Shown piece by piece: positions 15,995 to 51,717 of a DNA stretch of 64,000 nt (position 1 is its first letter; every line of letters starts with the position of its first letter). Source of the stretch: an uncultured Saccharospirillaceae bacterium (lineage in GTDB: Bacteria > Bacteroidota > Bacteroidia > Flavobacteriales_D > CAJJDF01); assembly GCA_950054195.1 (NCBI GenBank), contig CATLPG010000001.1:1-64000 (forward strand), read 5' to 3'. A program made the translations under genes and the position numbers. The notes under the pieces are model-generated. The model did not search any database, was not told where the DNA came from, and saw nothing but the letters and a program-made list of their open reading frames with translations.

Positions 15995-17125
15995 ATGAAA
16001 TTTATTTTATTCTTCTTTTTGGCTCTTACAAGCTATTCGTTTTCGCAACAAACGATCAATGGGTCAATCATGCATGATGGACAAACAAGAACTTATATTT
16101 TATATGTTCCAGCGAGTTATAACTCCAGTACAGATGTTCCTTTGGTATTTAATCTACATGGTTATACCAGTAACGCAAATGAACAAATGAATTACGGTGA
16201 TTTTAGATCAATAGCAGACACAGCTAATTTTATAGTAGTCCACCCGATGGGGTTAAATGATGTTAATAGTCAACCACACTGGAATGTGGAAAACGGGAAC
16301 AGTTCTGTTGATGATTTAGGTTTTATTAATGCTCTTTTGGATGATTTGATCGCTAATTATGCTATTGATACGAACAGAGTATACAGCACTGGTATGTCGA
16401 ACGGTGGGTATATGAGTTTTTATTTAGCTTGCAAAGCTAGCAATCGTTTTGCAGCTGTTGCTTCTGTAACTGGAGCAATGAGTCAACTTAACATTAATAC
16501 ATGTAATGTACAACACCCTACTCCTATTATGCAAATACATGGAACAAATGACAATACGGTAGCTTATAATGGAACTGCATTTACACCATCAGTTCCTGAT
16601 GTTGTTAATTTTTGGGTAGCTGAAAACAATTGTAACACTACTCCAACCATAACAAACGTTCCTAACACAAATACTAATGATGGTAGTACAGTTGAGCACT
16701 ATGTTTATACAGGTGGAGATTTAGGAAGTACAGTTGAGCATTACAAAGTAATTAATGGAGGACATACATGGCCGGGGTCTGCGGTTCCTTTAGTAGGAAT
16801 GAATACAAATTATGATTTTGATGCATCTATTGAAATTTGGAGGTTTTTCTCTCAATACAACTTAGCCGATTTGAGACAAACTACGTCATTAAACGAAGTT
16901 GAGGGAACTAGTTTTAATGTATATCCTAATCCTGTTAATGGGGAAATTATTAATGTGTCTTTAAAAAATAATGAGCCGGCTTTATTAGCTATTTACAATG
17001 CTATTGGTAAAGAAGTTTTAAGAAAAAACATTACTAGCTCCGCAAGTTTTTCAATGGCTACTGTTGATGATGGAATGTACTTTTTTAAGATTGGAGAGCA
17101 AACCCTTAAGGTTATTAAACAGTAG
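15995..17125 (+). CDS. secreted PHB-depolymerase-like esterase with T9SS sorting domain
   Basis: A 376-residue secreted alpha/beta hydrolase. A signal peptide (MKFILFFFLALTSYSFSQ) is followed by a polyhydroxybutyrate-depolymerase/LpqC-like catalytic domain. The oxyanion region is VFNLHGYTSNANEQMNYGDF, the nucleophile is Ser135 in GMSNGG, and the catalytic His is likely in GGHTWPG. The last 75 residues (FNVYPNPVNGEIINVSL to FKIGEQTLKVIKQ) are a T9SS type-A sorting domain, so the enzyme is exported across the outer membrane. Natural substrate unknown; feruloyl or short-chain esters are alternatives. Confidence 0.88.
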   Translation: MKFILFFFLALTSYSFSQQTINGSIMHDGQTRTYILYVPASYNSSTDVPLVFNLHGYTSNANEQMNYGDFRSIADTANFIVVHPMGLNDVNSQPHWNVENGNSSVDDLGFINALLDDLIANYAIDTNRVYSTGMSNGGYMSFYLACKASNRFAAVASVTGAMSQLNINTCNVQHPTPIMQIHGTNDNTVAYNGTAFTPSVPDVVNFWVAENNCNTTPTITNVPNTNTNDGSTVEHYVYTGGDLGSTVEHYKVINGGHTWPGSAVPLVGMNTNYDFDASIEIWRFFSQYNLADLRQTTSLNEVEGTSFNVYPNPVNGEIINVSLKNNEPALLAIYNAIGKEVLRKNITSSASFSMATVDDGMYFFKIGEQTLKVIKQ

Positions 17126-39394: not shown

Positions 39395-39402
39395 TAGTTT
39401 TG
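39395..39402 (+). promoter_or_regulatory. -7 promoter element of the 39421 gene
   Basis: TAGTTTTG matches TAnnTTTG exactly and ends 18 nt before the ATG at 39421. An in-frame TTG at 39400 lies inside the element, which argues for the later start. Confidence 0.55.
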
Positions 39403-39420
39403 CTTAACATTAGTTTACTT

Positions 39421-41271
39421 ATGAAAAAATTACTTACACTTTTAGTTTTATCTATAATTCCTTTTATTAACAAATCGCAACAATGCGAAATAAATGCTTT
39501 TGCATCAGTTGACACGGCACTATGTGGCAAATGTTTTACGTTAAGTGCATTTGGCGTAGGAAGCTTTGCTTTTCAAGAAGATTTTAATAGCGGCTCTCCT
39601 CAAGGTTGGCAATTTACTCAAAATGTTACTATAGCAAATAATACTTGCGGTATACCTTCTCCAGATGGCTCAAACTTTATGTGGATGGGGGATGCTTCTC
39701 AAAATCCAAGAGACATGACTACTGTTGATTTAGATTTAACATTAGGCGGAACCATTTGTTTTGAAATGAGATATGCTGTGCAAGGTGGAGCCTCTCCTTG
39801 TGAAGGTCCAGATGAACCTTCAGAAGGTGTTTATGTCCAGTACTCAACCAATAACGGAGCAACATGGGTAGATATACAGTATTGGGATCCTAATGGTGGA
39901 AACGATCCTCAACTTACCTCATGGAATCAATACTGCGTTACAATACCAGCAGCAGCACAAACAACAAATACTATGATACGTTGGCATCAAGATGCTGTTA
40001 CAGGTCCTGACTATGATCACTGGGGGATAGATAATGTAGTTGTAAGTCTTAACGATCCAAATTCGGTCATAACTTGGCAACATGACAATTACACATACCC
40101 AGCAGGGTCTGGTGGTGGTGATAATCCAACTCAAGCATGTATTACTCAAGAAACAACTTACGTTGTGTCTATTACAACTGGAGCTAATACTTGTTATGAT
40201 ACCGTAACAGTTCCTGTTAACTACCCTACCATAACAGTTAATGCTGGTATAGATACAAATGTTTGTGAGTCTTCATGTGTGGACTTAAGTGGTTCTGCAT
40301 TTGTGGTACAGAGTCCTGCTAAAACACCAACCTATGTCAACGCAGAACAAAGCGAAATAAGCGGTAATCCTTCGATACCTCCCTTTATAAATGGTGATTT
40401 TTCCACAGATATGAATTTGAATATTACCACACTCAATACCAACTCTATTGATACGGGACAAATTACCAGAGTATGTATTACTGGCTTTGATTTAACTTCT
40501 CTTTTTGGTATTGGCGGTATAAGCTTGGCAAATGCAGATATTATACTCTCTTGCCCTGGTGGACAAAGTATAAACTTAGTAAATGCTGGTCAGCTAGCTG
40601 GAAGTAGCATACAAGACATGTGTTTTGAAGTTGGGGGAGCAGCTATTAGTTCAGGTTCTGAGCCATATACTGGAACCTTTGAGCCAGCAGAGCCATTTAC
40701 AAACCTAAACGGTTGCGATGGTAATGGTTTGTGGAATATCGAAATTAGTGGAGATCATAATGCTTTATCTTTTCCTCCTTCTGGAGGAGTTGAGGGCTGG
40801 AGCATCACATTTGATGATCCAGAAATAAGTTATGAAGCTTTTTACTCATGGTCACCAACCACAGGTTTATCTGGTGCTAACTCTTTAAATCCATCAGTTT
40901 GTCCAGATCAAACAACAACTTACACATTAACAGCAGTAGATTCTAATAATTGTTTTACAGTAAATGATCAAGTTGTAGTTAGCGTTTGTGATGATATTGT
41001 TCCTGATATTGAAAGACCAAACATAATATCAATAAATGGAGACGGTAAAAACGATTCATTCATCATCAAAAGACTAGAGAATTATCCAAATACAACCTTA
41101 GTTATATTTAATAGATGGGGTAAAAAGGTTTACGAAAATTCCAATTATCAAAACGATTGGAAAGGAACCAATAATAGTGGTGCTGAAGTTTCTGCTGGAG
41201 TATATTATTATGTATTATCCAACGATACCTGGAAAGATGCAATTAAGGGTAATTTAACCATTACGAAGTAA
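39421..41271 (+). CDS. T9SS type-B surface protein with reelin-like and P-like domains
   Basis: A 616-residue secreted protein from ATG 39421 (MKKLLTLLVLSIIPFINKSQ signal). The first domain (FQEDFNSGSPQGWQF, GVYVQYSTNNGATWVDIQYW, DYDHWGIDNVVVSL) is like reelin-repeat or MAM-type jelly rolls. A second beta domain (ITRVCITGFDLTSLFGIGGI, ADIILSCPGGQSINL, NGLWNIEISGDHNALSFPPS) resembles a proprotein-convertase P domain. The protein ends in a type-B sorting domain (NIISINGDGKNDSFIIKRLE, NRWGKKVYENSNYQNDWKG). Domain names are by motif memory, not by search. It overlaps the convergent aminotransferase gene by 11 nt. Confidence 0.82.
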   Translation: MKKLLTLLVLSIIPFINKSQQCEINAFASVDTALCGKCFTLSAFGVGSFAFQEDFNSGSPQGWQFTQNVTIANNTCGIPSPDGSNFMWMGDASQNPRDMTTVDLDLTLGGTICFEMRYAVQGGASPCEGPDEPSEGVYVQYSTNNGATWVDIQYWDPNGGNDPQLTSWNQYCVTIPAAAQTTNTMIRWHQDAVTGPDYDHWGIDNVVVSLNDPNSVITWQHDNYTYPAGSGGGDNPTQACITQETTYVVSITTGANTCYDTVTVPVNYPTITVNAGIDTNVCESSCVDLSGSAFVVQSPAKTPTYVNAEQSEISGNPSIPPFINGDFSTDMNLNITTLNTNSIDTGQITRVCITGFDLTSLFGIGGISLANADIILSCPGGQSINLVNAGQLAGSSIQDMCFEVGGAAISSGSEPYTGTFEPAEPFTNLNGCDGNGLWNIEISGDHNALSFPPSGGVEGWSITFDDPEISYEAFYSWSPTTGLSGANSLNPSVCPDQTTTYTLTAVDSNNCFTVNDQVVVSVCDDIVPDIERPNIISINGDGKNDSFIIKRLENYPNTTLVIFNRWGKKVYENSNYQNDWKGTNNSGAEVSAGVYYYVLSNDTWKDAIKGNLTITK

Positions 41272-44478: not shown

Positions 44479-44486
44479 TATATTTG
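44479..44486 (+). promoter_or_regulatory. -7 promoter element of tRNA-Phe
   Basis: TATATTTG matches TAnnTTTG exactly, 15 nt before the first base of the tRNA. The region 19 nt upstream is a T run. Confidence 0.6.
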
Positions 44487-44501: not shown

Positions 44502-44574
44502 GGTGCCTTAGCTCAGTTGGTAGAGCAAAGGACTGAAAATCCTTGTGTCCCTGGTTCGATTCCTGGAGGCACCA
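44502..44574 (+). tRNA. tRNA-Phe (anticodon GAA)
   Basis: A 73-nt cloverleaf. The acceptor is GGTGCCT / AGGCACC with discriminator A; the D stem is GCTC/GAGC; the anticodon stem is AAGGA/TCCTT with loop CTGAAAA (anticodon GAA); the variable loop is GTGTC; and the T loop is TTCGATT. The T stem is CCTGG/CCTGG, giving a T-T mismatch at the middle pair. The 3' CCA is not encoded. Confidence 0.97.
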
Positions 44575-44589
44575 CTAGCTTAAAAAGAA

Positions 44590-44627
44590 AAACCCTTAGC
44601 TATTAAAGTAAAGTTGAGGGTTTTTTT
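44590..44627 (+). terminator. terminator after tRNA-Phe
   Basis: AAACCCTTA pairs with TGAGGGTTT (one G-T pair) across a loop of about 18 nt, followed by seven T residues. It ends the tRNA transcript and isolates it from the surface locus downstream. Confidence 0.8.
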
Positions 44628-44915
44628 GTTTTCCACTCAAGCAATACAACTATTTAACTATAATACCTAGCAAATTTATAAACCTTACTAATTTTGTTGG
44701 CATAATAATTTCAATAAGGGACTTTTAATATTAAAACATTGTAAAAATTGGTAATAATTCATTATTATTAGTAATGGAATTGTGTTTAATTTTAACAAAT
44801 CTAATTTGATATGCAACTCTAAAGAAAGGCTGAGTTTTTTATGCTAAGTACAATTAGAAGGTTTAAGTCTTTATCACAAAAAAAAACAAATTTAAAGATG
44901 AGTAAATACTAGCTA
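44628..44915. other. AT-rich intergenic region upstream of the surface locus
   Basis: No gene is supported here. It holds an exact TAATTTTG (-7-like, plus strand) at 44689-44696, about 220 nt before the next gene, a TAAATTTG on the minus strand at 44671-44678, and a small palindrome TAATAAT-TC-ATTATTA at 44752-44767. A 23-codon open frame at 44841-44912 ends 3 nt before the next start, but has no independent support. A long 5' leader for the surface locus is possible. Confidence 0.4.
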
Positions 44916-45644
44916 ATGAAGAACCTTTGTATATATATAATTATTTTTCTTTTTGCTTTTTCAGCGAAGAGTCAATATTATACAAATACTCAAATCAACA
45001 CTATCAGAAATAGTAAAACAGCTTATGAGGGAGACATGTACCTGGACACTATTAACAATCAGTTTTTTATAGGGCTTTCAAATGGCTCTCTTGCTAAAAT
45101 TGGCGACACCATTGATGAAAGAATTGATACTATCCTTTCGATTGGAGATTCTATTGCGTTTGTTGAAGGGTTAGATACTTTATATTCTACTATCTTAAAA
45201 GACAATGACTGGTACAAACAAGGCACCAACTCTACTTCTCAAAACATTAATGATAGTATTTATACTAATGGTGATATTCAGCTAACCAATTATCCTGAAA
45301 CTAGAGCTGATGATACTACTGCCCACCTAAACACACTCTACACAGATAATACTGGTAATGTAAAAAGTGCCCGAAGAGAAATTATTCCCCCTCCAATTGA
45401 CTTAGATGTATCTTCAACCTCTACAGGTAATACATTCAACTACTACAATCATTATGCAACTCAACTTACTAATGTTGGGTTAACTCCTATCCCGCTTGCT
45501 AACCTAGATTTTTATTTAATGTATTATGATAACGCAGTATTTAACAATGTAACTGTATCAACTACAGGAGTATTAACTTATGATGTAATTTCAACTTCTC
45601 CCAACCAAAACCGGTCCATATATGTTATTTTCTATACTAAATAG
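44916..45644 (+). CDS. secreted protein of unknown function, first gene of the surface pair
   Basis: A 242-residue exported protein (signal MKNLCIYIIIFLFAFSAKS). It reads YYTNTQINTIRNSKTAYEGD and MYLDTINNQFFIGLSNGSLA, which resembles the stalk-attachment or tail-fibre-like start of Bacteroidota surface proteins. A Thr/Asp-rich helical segment follows, then a beta-rich end (NRSIYVIFYTK). No sorting domain is visible. Its last 23 nt overlap the start of the next gene in another frame, so the two are probably co-translated. I do not recognise a family. Confidence 0.65.
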   Translation: MKNLCIYIIIFLFAFSAKSQYYTNTQINTIRNSKTAYEGDMYLDTINNQFFIGLSNGSLAKIGDTIDERIDTILSIGDSIAFVEGLDTLYSTILKDNDWYKQGTNSTSQNINDSIYTNGDIQLTNYPETRADDTTAHLNTLYTDNTGNVKSARREIIPPPIDLDVSSTSTGNTFNYYNHYATQLTNVGLTPIPLANLDFYLMYYDNAVFNNVTVSTTGVLTYDVISTSPNQNRSIYVIFYTK

Positions 45645-48051
45645 AATACATATATTTTCCCTCCTGCTTTTAAGCTTTTACGCAGGATACTCACAAAACT
45701 CTGCTCATATTTTTGTTGATTCATTAGATACACAAGTGGCTTCATTTTCAACATTCGATTGTAATTTTGGGCTAACCTATAAGGTATGGAATCAAACAGG
45801 GTTAAATTCATGTAATGCTTTTTTTGGAGGAAGTCCTGGAACTGCTCCAGCAGGATTTACAGACTCTGCCGGCTCCAGTAATACTCAATATGGAGACTTT
45901 TCCATTAGTCCGAGTTGGAATGGACAAGACGACATGATTCAACTAAAGGGTTTTATTATCATTCCCGAAACAGGAAATTATAGGTTCAGAACTTTTTCAG
46001 ATGATGGATCTAGACTATACATAAATAACACACTAGTTGTGGATAATGATGGAACACACGCTCCTGCAACTGTTACATCAGGTAATATATTCTACACTGC
46101 AGGTATTTATCCTTTTGAATGCCAATACTTTGAAAGAGGAGGAGAAGATATACTTGTAGTAAGTTGGCAAACTCCATCTTCTGCAGGCTTTGATATTATG
46201 CCTAATGAAATCTTTATACGAAATGCATCATCTGTTTGTACAAATTTCTGGTTAAATCCAGGCAAACCATTTACATTATACAGTTGCCCAAAAGAGTTAC
46301 AAGATTTAAACTTACCTAGTGGAGTTTACCTTTTTGATCCCGATGGGGATGGATTAAACCCCATAAAAGGATATTATGATAATGGCTTAGGAGGTGGATG
46401 GCTCATGGTTTTAAATTATGTCCACAGAGGAGGAACAGATCCTGCTTTAAATATAAGAACAAACAGCCTGCCATTACTTGGTTCATCCTCTTTAGGAGTC
46501 GATGAATCTGGCACACAGTTTTGGGGACATGCATCAAACAGCTTACTTAATCAATTTAATATAACAGAAATTCGTTTTTTTGGAGTTACTTCTAGCCATC
46601 AACGAGTACTTCATTTTAGCACAACCAATGCAAATGCTATCAACTACATTAGAACAGGTACGGGAAGCATGAATGGTATACAAACCGGATTCAGCAACTA
46701 TGCTGGTTCTGGTGGCGGAACTGCAAATTTACCAGGAAGTGCAAATACATTTAGATCTAACCAAGGAGATAACGCCCTAACCTACACTCCTTTTTATAAT
46801 GGGAATTACGAATGGGAAATAAGAAGAGGAAATGACTGGAACATGGACGATAGAGCAAATGATGAAGATGAAAACACTATTCATCGAGTTTGGATAAGAA
46901 CAACAGATTGTGCAGTTAACACAGCTTTTTATGCTGATGGAGATAACGTTGATATTGCTGAAAGCATAACAAAAGGAAATGCTGAATCCATTCTAACACA
47001 AACTAACGGTGCAGAACAACCTGTATTTAGAGATAATATTATTGATAATATTAATTTCAATCCCGTTTTTGATATAGATGGTAATGATGAACTAATATCT
47101 GAATCAATTATTGGTCTTGAAAATTCTGAACTTACATTTTTTATTGTCGCCAAAGAACGAACAAGAACAACTAATAGAGTCGTTAAATTTAAAGACGATG
47201 AATCTGGATCAAACAGATACTTTATCCATTTTCCGTGGACGGATGGAAATGTTTACTGGGATGCTGGAACTGCCAGTGCTCCAAATCGTATACAAGGACC
47301 AATTGCTAACCCTGTAGGGCAACCTTCCATTGGATGCTTCTCAAATTCTCTTTCTAGCGGCATACAAAACATAAATGTTGATGGAACATCAGTAGGAAGC
47401 GATATAACTGGTCATCAAGTTTTAAACTTAGACTTTACCACTTTAGGGAAAGATTATAATGGTTGGATTGGAGATTTTATAGTAATAGATAAATTGCTAT
47501 CAAACATCCAGATAGAACGAATAGAAAGCTACTTAGCGATAAAATATGGAGTAACATTAGGACATAACTATTATTCATCTTTGGACCAAGAAGTATACAA
47601 TGTTTCTAACGGATACGGTAATGATATTTTTGGAGTCGGTAGAGATGAAGTACATGGACTATACCAAACAAGATCACATACTGAAAATATAAATACCAGT
47701 GATATTTTATTTGAGCTTACACAAGATGTAAGTGATCACCAGTTCTTAATCTCCGGACACAATGGAGGTGCATTAACCAGAAGAAACCTAGCAGGTGAAA
47801 GCAATGTTTTAACAAGAGAATGGTTTGCTGAAATGAGTGGAAACCTTGGTACTATTAATATAGAAGTTGATCTAGCATCAATCGGAGGTAACACAACCCC
47901 TGCTCCTTCTGATGTTAAAATAATAATAGCTAATAACCCAGCATTTAATAATGCCTACACAATTGAGGCTACTTCAATAACTGGAGGTATAGCAAATTTT
48001 GAAGGCATACCTCTATACGACAAGTATTACACATTTGTTAGTCCTCCTTAA
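45622..48051 (+). CDS. large surface protein with PA14, fibrinogen-like and LamG-like domains
   Basis: An 809-residue exported protein with a signal near the N-terminus (IFSLLLLSFYAGYSQ). Residues about 55-190 look like PA14 (GFIIIPETGNYRFRTFSDDG, SRLYINNTLVVDNDG). Residues about 210-420 resemble a fibrinogen C-terminal domain (CPKELQDLNLPSGVYLFDPD, then GGGWLMVLNYVHRGG). Residues about 420-680 hold a concanavalin/LamG-like domain ending in IERIESYLAIKYGVTLG, a motif shared by many Bacteroidota surface proteins. It stops at YDKYYTFVSPP with no T9SS sorting domain, which is odd for this architecture. Domain boundaries are approximate. Confidence 0.8.
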   Translation: MLFSILNRIHIFSLLLLSFYAGYSQNSAHIFVDSLDTQVASFSTFDCNFGLTYKVWNQTGLNSCNAFFGGSPGTAPAGFTDSAGSSNTQYGDFSISPSWNGQDDMIQLKGFIIIPETGNYRFRTFSDDGSRLYINNTLVVDNDGTHAPATVTSGNIFYTAGIYPFECQYFERGGEDILVVSWQTPSSAGFDIMPNEIFIRNASSVCTNFWLNPGKPFTLYSCPKELQDLNLPSGVYLFDPDGDGLNPIKGYYDNGLGGGWLMVLNYVHRGGTDPALNIRTNSLPLLGSSSLGVDESGTQFWGHASNSLLNQFNITEIRFFGVTSSHQRVLHFSTTNANAINYIRTGTGSMNGIQTGFSNYAGSGGGTANLPGSANTFRSNQGDNALTYTPFYNGNYEWEIRRGNDWNMDDRANDEDENTIHRVWIRTTDCAVNTAFYADGDNVDIAESITKGNAESILTQTNGAEQPVFRDNIIDNINFNPVFDIDGNDELISESIIGLENSELTFFIVAKERTRTTNRVVKFKDDESGSNRYFIHFPWTDGNVYWDAGTASAPNRIQGPIANPVGQPSIGCFSNSLSSGIQNINVDGTSVGSDITGHQVLNLDFTTLGKDYNGWIGDFIVIDKLLSNIQIERIESYLAIKYGVTLGHNYYSSLDQEVYNVSNGYGNDIFGVGRDEVHGLYQTRSHTENINTSDILFELTQDVSDHQFLISGHNGGALTRRNLAGESNVLTREWFAEMSGNLGTINIEVDLASIGGNTTPAPSDVKIIIANNPAFNNAYTIEATSITGGIANFEGIPLYDKYYTFVSPP

Positions 48052-48052
48052 C

Positions 48053-48084
48053 AAAAGAGGCGATTCAGTTGAATCGCCTCTTTT
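48053..48084. terminator. bidirectional terminator between the surface gene and rpoD
   Basis: A perfect 14-bp stem (48053-48066 with 48071-48084, loop AGTT) of the form AAAAGAGGCGATTC / GAATCGCCTCTTTT, with A and T tracts on the two arms. It separates the convergent genes ending at 48051 and 48091. Confidence 0.93.
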
Positions 48085-48090
48085 GTATTA

Positions 48091-48960
48091 TTAACCTAAA
48101 TAGTCTTTAAGAAGTTTACTTCTTGACCTTTGTTTTAATTTCCTAAGTGCTTTTTCTTTTACTTGTCTAACTCTTTCACGAGTTAAACCAAATTTTTCAC
48201 CAATTTCTTCAAGCGTTAATGGATATCTTTCATCAATTCCATAATATAGTTTGATAACATCAGCTTCTCTAGGCAATAATGTTGCTAACGAACGCTCAAT
48301 TTCTTCCTTTAATGATTCCTGCATAATTTCTTCATCTGGCTCAGCCACATGATCTGATGCAAATACCTCATACATATTATTTGAGCTTTCATCATCGCTC
48401 TTTAATGGAGCATCCATGGAAATGTGTCTACCAGCTATCTTCAATGAACGGTCTACATCTTTTACGCTAGTTTCCAATTCATCCGCTAGCTCCTCGTTAG
48501 AAGGTGTTCGTTCAAACTCTTGTTCTAATCTTGAAAAAGCTTTGTTCACTTTATTAATAGAACCAATTTTGTTTAATGGTAAACGAACAATCCTAGCGTG
48601 TTCAGCAATAGCCTGTAAAATAGACTGCCTAATCCACCAAACCGCATAGGAAATAAACTTAAAACCCCTTGTTTCATCAAAACGTTGGGCTGCTTTGATT
48701 AATCCTAAATTTCCTTCGTTAATTAAATCGGATAAGGATAATCCTTGATTTTGATATTGTTTAGATACTGATATCACAAAACGTAAATTCGCTTTGGTTA
48801 ATCTATTCAATGCCCTTTGATCTCCCTCTCTAACTCTCCTTGCTAATTCAACCTCCTCTTCTGCTGTGATTAAATCAAACTTGCTTATTTCTTGTAAATA
48901 TTTATCTAGAGACTCTGTCTCTCGATTTGTAATTTGTTTTGTTATTTTTAACTGCCTCAT
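48091..48960 (-). CDS. rpoD: principal sigma-70 factor (short RpoD)
   Basis: A 289-residue sigma-70 factor. Region 1.2 begins [20 protein letters not shown]. Region 2 carries [20 protein letters not shown] and [22 protein letters not shown]. The -7 recognition helix is [20 protein letters not shown], region 3 follows, and region 4 is [20 protein letters not shown] with a [18 protein letters not shown] helix. Region 1.1 is absent, which is normal for the primary sigma factor of Bacteroidota. It should read the TAnnTTTG promoters seen throughout this window. It is convergent to the surface gene via a shared terminator. Confidence 0.95.
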
Positions 48961-49278: not shown

Positions 49279-51717
49279 ATGAAAAAAACGCTATTTATTA
49301 TATTTTGTTTAATCTCAACTTTATTAGTGGGACAAAAAGGAGTTAGAAACGAAGGCATTTCCTTTATGGAAAACAAAGGGCAATTAGCCTATAAAAATGG
49401 TCGAAAAGCCAAGGATGTTTTCTTTCAATTATCAGCAAACGGCATAGAGTTATTTTTAACAAACAAAGGATTAACTTATTACTTTATTAAACCCGATGAT
49501 GAAACCAATCAAGAAGAATTAGTTGTTAATAGCAAACAAAAACTGAAACAAAAATATTTTTCATGGGAAAAAATGGATGTTCACTTATTAGGAGCTAATA
49601 TTATTCAAGAAAACATCGTTAAAGAAGGAGAAAGTCTAGCTTATGACAATTTTTATTACCCACATTGTCCTGAAGGTATCTTAGGAGTTAAATCTTATAA
49701 AAGAATTACCATTAAAGATGTTTACCCTAACATTGACTGGGTATTGTACGTAAACGAAAAAGAATCATCTCCTATTAAGTATGATTTTATTGTTCATCCG
49801 TCAGGTAATCCAAAAGACATAAAACTCCACTATAAAGGCTCTGAAAATCTCAAAATAGAATTTTCTCCAAAACAAATGGTGCTCAAAAACAGCATAGGGC
49901 AGCTGGAGGATAAAGAAATTGTTTCTTTTTCCAAAAGGAAAAGAATCAACACAAATTTCATTAAAATTAGTGACAACACATTTGGTTTTGAGCTTATTGA
50001 TGAGTGGGACAAATCATCTGATTTAATTATTGATCCTGCATTAATTTGGGCGACATATTATGGATGGCAAAATGATGATGAATTTTATGGTGTACATAGT
50101 GATGGAGATTCTGTTTACTTTGTTGGAGTAAGTAACGCCAATTTTGGAGGCATATTAAACCCAGGAGGAGGAGCATACACACAAATGGGTAATGGTTTGG
50201 CTTCTGATGGCCATATCGCTCGTTTCGATACTGCTGGTGCTAGGCAATGGTCTACACATTACGGGAGTAGTGCAGTAGAAGCTTTTTGGAATGTGCATTC
50301 AAATGGCACAGATGTTTGTGTAGTTGGTTGGGCAGGAGCAGCAGATATGCCCACATTTAACCCAGGAGGTGGTGCTTATTTTGATAACACACTATCAGGG
50401 GGTAAAGATGCTTTTATTGCTCGTTTTAACTCATTAGGAGTTAGGGAATGGGCGACCTTTTTTGGTGGTACAGCTGGTGAAGAATTTATTGATGTGGAGT
50501 TTGACGGAACTAATTGGTGGGTAGTTGGAACGGGAAGTTCTGGGTTCCCAACTTTAGCTCTAGGAGGAGCTTATAATGATGCTACAGTTGGCGGATCTAG
50601 TGATGGGAGTATCCTAAAATTTAGCCCTACAGGCGTGTTACTTTGGTCTACTTTCTATGGAGGCTCAGGAACTAGTGATGGTATTTTAGATTTAAATTTT
50701 GACGGTACAAACATGTGGATTGCTGCAAATACAAATTCTGCTGATTACCCTACGTTAAACCCTGGTGGAGGGGCTTATTTTGATGGAACATTTAACGGGG
50801 GCACCACTGATGGAGCAATCTCAAAATTCTCTATAGGCGGTGCTCGTTTATGGTCTACATATATTGGAGGATCTGATATTGATAGACTAACCAGCGTTTT
50901 TAGTAATGGAACAGATGTTTGGTTATTAGGCAGCACTCGATCTACTAATTTCCCTACATTAAACCCAGGAGGAACGGCTTTTTATGATGGCACAAAAAAC
51001 ACAGGAGCAGCCAACTACTCTATGGTTGTTACTCGTTTTAATACAGCAGGCGTTAGACAGTGGGGAAGTTATTTAGAAGGATCAGGAGGAGAAGCTCTTC
51101 AATGCGGTATATCCGGAGATGCTAACAATGCAATTATAGCAGCGAGAACTTCATCTGCTGATTTTCCAATTCAAGCTAAGGCTGGAGCTTTTAACGATAA
51201 TACTTATGGCGGATCTAACGATGCGGTAATGGTGCAGTTTAATACCTCTGATGAACTGGAATGGTCAACTTACTTAGGAAGCACAGATGTTGATGAACTT
51301 AAAGCTGTGCATTATGATGGTACAAACATTTGGGCTTGTGGTTGGTCTTGGAGTAATTTCCCTACGGTTGATCCAGGAGGAACAACTTACCATAAAGGAA
51401 TTGCAACAAGCTTCTCTGATGCTATAATTGTTAAATTTGCTTCTTTGGGTGGTCCTTGTGGAGCATGTGCCTTAAGTGGATCGGGATCACTATGGACTTG
51501 GACAGGTTGTATCGATACCGATTGGTTTGACCCTTGTAACTGGGATAGACAATCAGTTCCTACAACAACTTCTGATGTATTAGTTCCTAACACAACCAAT
51601 AAGCCAATAATTACAGGCGCTTTTGGAAACTGTAGAACAATAGAGGTACAAAGTAGTACTGGTGCTACCCTAGAAGTTCAGACAACATTGGGAGGTGGGC
51701 TAAATGTGACTTTTTAA
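49279..51717 (+). CDS. SBBP-repeat beta-propeller surface protein
   Basis: An 812-residue exported protein (signal MKKTLFIIFCLISTLLVGQ). The N-terminal part (about residues 20-255: GISFMENKGQLAYKNGRKAK, SYKRITIKDVYPNIDWVLY, DFIVHPSGNPKDIKLHYKG) is the conserved domain that precedes SBBP repeats. Seven propeller units follow, each with a tag like NPGGGAYFD after an ARFN/KFS-type strand. The C-terminus (WTGCIDTDWFDPCNWDRQSV) begins the usual post-propeller region but ends at LGGGLNVTF without a T9SS sorting domain, so it may be truncated or the tail may be lost. Ligand unknown. Confidence 0.83.
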   Translation: MKKTLFIIFCLISTLLVGQKGVRNEGISFMENKGQLAYKNGRKAKDVFFQLSANGIELFLTNKGLTYYFIKPDDETNQEELVVNSKQKLKQKYFSWEKMDVHLLGANIIQENIVKEGESLAYDNFYYPHCPEGILGVKSYKRITIKDVYPNIDWVLYVNEKESSPIKYDFIVHPSGNPKDIKLHYKGSENLKIEFSPKQMVLKNSIGQLEDKEIVSFSKRKRINTNFIKISDNTFGFELIDEWDKSSDLIIDPALIWATYYGWQNDDEFYGVHSDGDSVYFVGVSNANFGGILNPGGGAYTQMGNGLASDGHIARFDTAGARQWSTHYGSSAVEAFWNVHSNGTDVCVVGWAGAADMPTFNPGGGAYFDNTLSGGKDAFIARFNSLGVREWATFFGGTAGEEFIDVEFDGTNWWVVGTGSSGFPTLALGGAYNDATVGGSSDGSILKFSPTGVLLWSTFYGGSGTSDGILDLNFDGTNMWIAANTNSADYPTLNPGGGAYFDGTFNGGTTDGAISKFSIGGARLWSTYIGGSDIDRLTSVFSNGTDVWLLGSTRSTNFPTLNPGGTAFYDGTKNTGAANYSMVVTRFNTAGVRQWGSYLEGSGGEALQCGISGDANNAIIAARTSSADFPIQAKAGAFNDNTYGGSNDAVMVQFNTSDELEWSTYLGSTDVDELKAVHYDGTNIWACGWSWSNFPTVDPGGTTYHKGIATSFSDAIIVKFASLGGPCGACALSGSGSLWTWTGCIDTDWFDPCNWDRQSVPTTTSDVLVPNTTNKPIITGAFGNCRTIEVQSSTGATLEVQTTLGGGLNVTF

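Follow-up and report, generated by a model that had tools for sequence, protein, structure and literature searches.

Among described systems, those closest to the gene pair analysed here are the T9SS type B CTD surface adhesins, whose localisation needs a specific partner that is often encoded next door (PMC12618676; PMC9143113). Our locus is alike in that a putative surface adhesin (P0002) would have a specific linked partner (P0001), whereas the parts differ: type B cargo bears TIGR04131 and relies on an outer-membrane barrel of the PorP/SprF-like kind, while P0002 matches no T9SS model and is linked to a fibre-like protein. P0001 does not resemble a PorP/SprF-like barrel, having no Pfam or NCBIfam match and a structure model that is not a barrel. 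In the literature searched, as far as its text was available, we recognised no description of such a pair of stalk and cargo.

Three further groups invite comparison. The C-terminal domain (CTD) of P0002 has relatives among Flavobacteriales T9SS proteins, the related domain occurring in 83 of 399 genomes, those with pairs included, and two CTD-related proteins from within the family additionally align with the final portion of the LamG-like stretch of P0002; unlike P0002, the CTD-related proteins that are readable to their end continue into TIGR04183 or TIGR04131. Phage and pyocin fibres, including the major tropism determinant (Mtd), come to mind because the model of the N-terminal module of P0001 (the N-module) is Mtd-like and sister proteins contain an S74 chaperone or YadA-head repeats, although signal peptides are present here, P0001 has no match in phage records, and neither head nor N-module has one in viral contigs. 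Lastly, 45-48 residues of the N-module cover most of the 53-56-residue collagen XV/XVIII domain in structural superposition (Z 4.1-4.3; 3n3f, 3hon, 3hsh), yet identity is 12-16% and the PDB sequence profile misses the collagen domain, so the relation may be one of form only.

Architecture of the gene pair

The window (the whole 64,000-nt stretch of DNA that was analysed, from the source genome G000) contains the two overlapping genes for secreted proteins that the first-pass annotation had described, both ORFs being present with 242 and 809 codons and 23 nt in common. The features of the locus are as follows.

44916..45644, + strand: gene 1 (ORF), P0001, 242 aa, predicted secreted fibre-like protein with leader, N-module, stalk and head
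44973..45164, + strand: N-module, immediately following the leader (from Q20); found 27 times, in the six family genomes
45201..45641, + strand: stalk end and type-A head, present six times in 399 genomes and always in a cluster with a close P0002-type CTD
45622..45644, + strand: gene overlap of 23 nt, from the ATG of gene 2 to the stop of gene 1
45622..48051, + strand: gene 2 (ORF), P0002, 809 aa, putative partner and cargo, with leader and without T9SS domain
45907..46191, + strand: PA14 domain, P0002 residues 96-190 (E 1.5e-16)
46303..46410, + strand: fibrinogen-like GGGW motif region, residues 228-263 (GGGWT match E 0.0036, sub-threshold)
46993..47577, + strand: LamG-like stretch, residues 458-652 (phrog_10356 only, E 3.3e-9)
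47593..48048, + strand: type-A CTD, residues 658-809, about 150 residues, conserved in six copies
48051..48086, no strand: 16-bp hairpin resembling a terminator, lying between gene 2 and the convergently oriented sigma-factor gene (-25.9 kcal/mol, z -9)

Both proteins begin with hydrophobic stretches of the signal-peptide type, judged by hydropathy and by eye, as is expected of the Sec signal of a T9SS substrate. Upstream of the pair lies a tRNA-Phe gene (44502-44575), followed by a leader region (44576-44915) with a GC content of 24% compared to 33% for the whole window. A scan for consensus sigma-70 promoters returned 15 where 17.6 were expected, and the same scan did not flag the strong hairpin. 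The promoter motif TAnnTTTG occurs at 44479 before the tRNA and at 44689 in the leader region; a TTG at the expected spacing is absent from both sites. Downstream, only 39 nt, which contain the strong hairpin, separate the stop of gene 2 from the convergent sigma-factor gene (48091-48960, - strand).

The PA14 domain of P0002 is a clear Pfam match (PF07691, 60.9 bits against a gathering score of 24). The fibrinogen-like region stays below the cut-off, as it does in the homologue on G002:C50 (E 6.1e-5). Searched against phage records, P0002 gave one match (residues 106-182), and against plasmid records 27, with 10 of 10 among the matches listed overlapping the PA14 region. None of the T9SS models TIGR04183, TIGR04131/PF13585 and NF033708 matched P0001 or P0002 at E <= 1 in Pfam and NCBIfam. 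Elsewhere in the window, TIGR04183 (NCBIfam) was found at 15995-17122 and CHU_C (Pfam) at 39400-41268, and these positive controls indicate that the T9SS search works on the source genome.

Linkage of head and CTD across genomes

A second pair is encoded on contig C21 of the source genome (262 and 691 aa), with the same gene order and an overlap of identical length, 23 nt. Further type-A loci were found in the same-genus genome G005 (three) and in the same-family genome G002 (one), and alignment of all six gives 51-66% identity for the gene-1 head and 41-63% for the gene-2 CTD. The head profile identifies six places in 3 of the 399 genomes of the order. The CTD profile reaches many more genomes, and its six strongest matches (236-258 bits) coincide with the six head clusters: each of these close CTDs shares a tight cluster, and its strand, with one head (6/6). 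Because head and CTD recur together in five loci besides the window, their linkage is more than chance. Type A is confined to three genomes, at least two of which are MAGs, and a pattern-limited scan for heads in wider genome contigs returned four loci, all from G005 or G002.

No intact exception to the linkage was found. Below the top six CTD matches comes a headless fragment at 116 bits, after which there are distant relatives that do not exceed 71 bits. This fragment (G002:C22, L054 1118-1369) is broken, with one stop, lacks a head match on its contig and is probably a decayed copy.

While head and CTD stay together, cargo and stalk vary. At G005:C37 and G005:C33 the CTD stands alone as a 189-aa protein that has its own leader, and its gene comes behind an intervening one that encodes 1803 or 1345 aa. 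The 1345-aa protein has an additional related domain internally, and the 1803-aa protein has a sub-threshold Laminin_G_3 match at 1718-1782; by eye, the latter ends just past the LamG-like part, where fused proteins run into the CTD. The G000:C21 pair has a HU/SPOR-like gene, recognised by eye, in its vicinity, as does the G005:C33 triplet, which suggests that fused and split forms share one site. The N-module is missing from two of the six type-A stalks, and the head/CTD linkage still holds. The parts before the CTD include PA14 in P0002, an IgGFc-binding domain in the 1345-aa protein and NHL repeats plus ice-binding domains in the type-B partners described below, all of them domains expected outside the cell; P0002 and the cargo protein of G002:C50, however, resemble each other over residues 207-809.

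A second head type is found in N-module proteins at G000:C7 and G003:C34, beside proteins of 1078 and 700 aa that bear another C-terminal tail. The full-length type-B head is present in 2 of 384 genomes, and so is the full-length tail; the two genomes are identical for both, and there head and tail are adjacent, with the gene order reversed in G003. The other listed matches to the type-B head profile end by position 83, mostly within 50-68, which corresponds to a common stalk motif, and the remaining tail-profile matches listed do not extend beyond position 230, short of the terminal tail.

The loci are patchy and sometimes decaying. In G005, other genes, and no pair, come after the acs gene and tRNA-Phe, the sigma-factor gene being on a separate contig, and it is this absence after tRNA-Phe in a genome of the same genus that marks the pair as patchy. 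In G001, only an N-module fragment remains at the site matching G002:C50. The impression of an accessory locus beside a tRNA gene thus stands as regards patchiness, but the fetched surroundings of the other five type-A loci yielded no tRNA, for which reason we rejected a tRNA-borne island; the tRNA-Phe beside the pair looks incidental. One type-B locus has three tRNAs. An origin from a phage or plasmid was likewise rejected, as P0001 has no match in phage records and pattern-limited scans of viral contigs gave none for head or N-module.

The N-module family and structure models

Neither Pfam (at E <= 1) nor NCBIfam gives a match for P0001, so that its earlier description as a protein of no known family holds for these collections; by its N-module, however, it has eight relatives in its own genome. 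Of 399 genomes, six contain the N-module (68 positions), at 27 places in total; these are all six genomes of the family and none outside it, and the module is fused to varied C-termini. Compared with Pfam and PHROGs, its members show no consistent family, a weak match being common to at most 2 of 16 and at most 4 of 16 of them, respectively. Going by sequence, the N-module is a unit that the Pfam copy used does not recognise and that is defined here by 27 places with diverse C-termini.

A Pfam search of ten N-module proteins revealed Peptidase_S74 in one (L058) and YadA-head/beta-roll repeats in another; P0001 itself lacks the Peptidase_S74 chaperone in Pfam. By eye only, the C-termini of other N-module proteins appear C1q-like or tail-collar-like, and one protein (L172 5114-6013) ends in an apparent PA14-type domain. 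In this family PA14 may serve as a stalk head as well as cargo. At L013 336-5531 and L060 1400-8918, which represent both genomes of the genus, we observed two tandem N-module proteins beside a protein of 1250 or 1273 aa whose end is type B T9SS-like by eye, with the orientation differing between the loci.

A type-A or type-B head with a partner is present at 6 of the 27 N-module places. Among the matches listed, no CTD lies on the contigs of the remaining 21 (one a fragment), which indicates that pairing goes with the head. T9SS domains were found in none of six N-module proteins with NCBIfam and none of ten with Pfam; among those with other heads, seven (Pfam) and two (NCBIfam) gave no T9SS match. 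For P0001, Pfam and NCBIfam also did not reveal a barrel domain of the FhaC type, as used in two-partner secretion (TpsA/TpsB).

The structural comparisons are based on models of single chains, for P0001 as for the CTD. The P0001 model has a mean pLDDT of 56, with block means of 61-73 in the N-module (residues 21-60) and 74-90 in the head (161-240), and its stalk is disordered in the monomer. Residues 16-65 superpose on the N-terminal domain of Mtd (Z 4.2-4.4, rmsd 2.4-2.5, 44 aligned) and on the collagen XV/XVIII trimerisation domains (Z 3.6-4.3, rmsd 2.9-4.5), and together these account for 10 of the first 14 rows, designed collagen-domain fusions included. Mtd is trimeric, and trimerisation by collagen XV/XVIII is named in the structure titles; since two trimerising domains fill most of the first rows, the idea of trimerisation is worth keeping despite the low Z, and the modelled N-module shows a weak resemblance to such domains. 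The best Z for P0001 as a whole is 4.7 (phage SU10 tail, to the head), which is below a secure fold assignment and too weak to name a known fold for the type-A head. Foldseek gave no P0001 match at E <= 0.001 in PDB or viral models; the best viral model was a collagen-repeat protein (2.1e-3, low probability), and a protein with the Mtd N-terminal domain ranked 15 (E 0.06). Sequence searches of the PDB returned antibody and ribosomal chains only for the head profile (E 0.03-1), one chain at 0.45 for the N-module and none for the CTD. The CTD model has low confidence overall (mean pLDDT 33; residues 691-809 reach about 52-81), and its top rows, GAIN, NLRP1 and ZU5 domains at Z 7.0-6.1 and rmsd 3.8-4.7, are a lead only. 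Some domains of these three kinds cut themselves.

Sorting domain or stalk gene

Paired and unpaired CTD proteins follow an either/or pattern. A T9SS domain was found in 0 of 8 paired CTD proteins (searched at E <= 1 for P0002 and E <= 0.1 for the others) and in all 12 of the unpaired relatives whose end could be read. Ten of the latter derive from L067-L096, a set of 30 CTD-profile loci (3 type A, 10 unpaired and readable to the stop, 14 running off the locus, 3 uncounted), and all ten end in TIGR04183 above the cut-off. Within the family, both unpaired relatives scanned end in TIGR04131; the twelve exclude G003:C19, which was read only, and G005:C118, which runs off both contig ends. The two large intervening proteins (1803 and 1345 aa) have no T9SS match, and the genomes and contigs of the T9SS-bearing CTD relatives have no head match. 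For the resulting table (12:0 vs 0:8), Fisher p is 8e-6, to be used as a guide only because the proteins are related and ten were picked for having their ends in hand. The counts bear out the first-pass view that this architecture usually ends in a T9SS domain, and they agree with its suggestion that P0002 is retained by the product of gene 1, as all eight intact CTD proteins without a T9SS domain have a partner gene in the cluster. An intact homologue with neither sorting domain nor partner was not found; the broken G002:C22 fragment lacks both.

We lean towards the explanation that the two genes encode one surface complex, in which a fibre-like stalk docks the CTD of the cargo and thereby replaces the T9SS domain as the tether. 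P0001 would be exported by Sec, and its N-module, probably a trimerisation and/or anchoring unit, would start the trimer. The stalk would carry the trimer outward and present the C-terminal head as a docking site. P0002 would be the displayed cargo, consisting of exchangeable binding domains (PA14, fibrinogen-like, LamG-like) followed by the CTD, which would dock on its cognate head; this docking would stand in for the sorting domain and keep the cargo at the surface. Counting against such a complex, head and CTD distances are uncorrelated (details below), the structural matches are weak, a headless CTD fragment exists, type A is limited to three genomes, and no outer-membrane anchor was identified in P0001. 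More tentatively, one Flavobacteriales family might possess a display system whose trimeric, phage-fibre-like stalks have mutually orthogonal heads, of types A and B at least, and capture exchangeable adhesins by their matching CTDs, to carry them to, or hold them at, the surface with a T9SS signal on neither protein.

An alternative that we regard as unlikely is that the CTD is itself an unrecognised T9SS signal and the stalk its cognate receptor after secretion, in the manner of PorP/SprF-like proteins for type B. The CTD is indeed the last domain in 8 of 8 paired proteins, the partner gene is linked as are PorP/SprF genes for type B CTDs (PMC12618676), and two head/CTD types would fit specific pairs of signal and partner. 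However, in all twelve unpaired relatives that were readable to the end an ordinary T9SS domain comes after the related domain, which for that reason seems not to be the signal there. Judging by its model, P0001 is also unlike an outer-membrane barrel, and a separate CTD of 189 aa would be an odd signal.

We consider it improbable, too, that an operon was duplicated as a unit and that both proteins are secreted without touching. Head and CTD pairwise distances in the six type-A pairs are uncorrelated (r 0.24, with 165 of 720 relabellings as good), as this explanation would allow, and hence give no signal of co-evolution; moreover, the pairs descend from few ancestors and represent few independent lineages, so the linkage is partly inherited. 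Yet it has outlived loss of the N-module, change of cargo and the splitting off of the CTD by a large gene, and the second type is linked as well, in reversed order in one of two loci. Duplication would also leave the T9SS either/or pattern unexplained. Finally, loss of a P0002 sorting domain by frameshift or deletion, as the first-pass annotation had considered, is hardly credible even though related proteins end in T9SS domains, because the C-terminus of P0002 (YDKYYTFVSPP) has the ending shared by all six aligned CTD copies and the 39 nt with the terminator before the convergent sigma-factor gene leave no room for a frameshifted domain.

If docking on a stalk does replace the sorting domain, a fibre gene in the same cluster would explain why a class of large adhesins in Bacteroidota has no T9SS domain, and annotation could follow the rule that either a sorting domain or a stalk gene is to be expected. 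The two head/CTD couples would be testable in vitro and could offer a modular display scaffold, and N-module proteins raise the question of how the outer membrane is crossed.

Two other proteins of the window were noted in passing. An 812-aa secreted protein (49279-51717) with repeated beta-propeller-like units seemingly ends, by eye, without a typical sorting domain, and a small putative lipoprotein (771-1100) contains a repeated acidic DPDKDDDHDVDEG unit.
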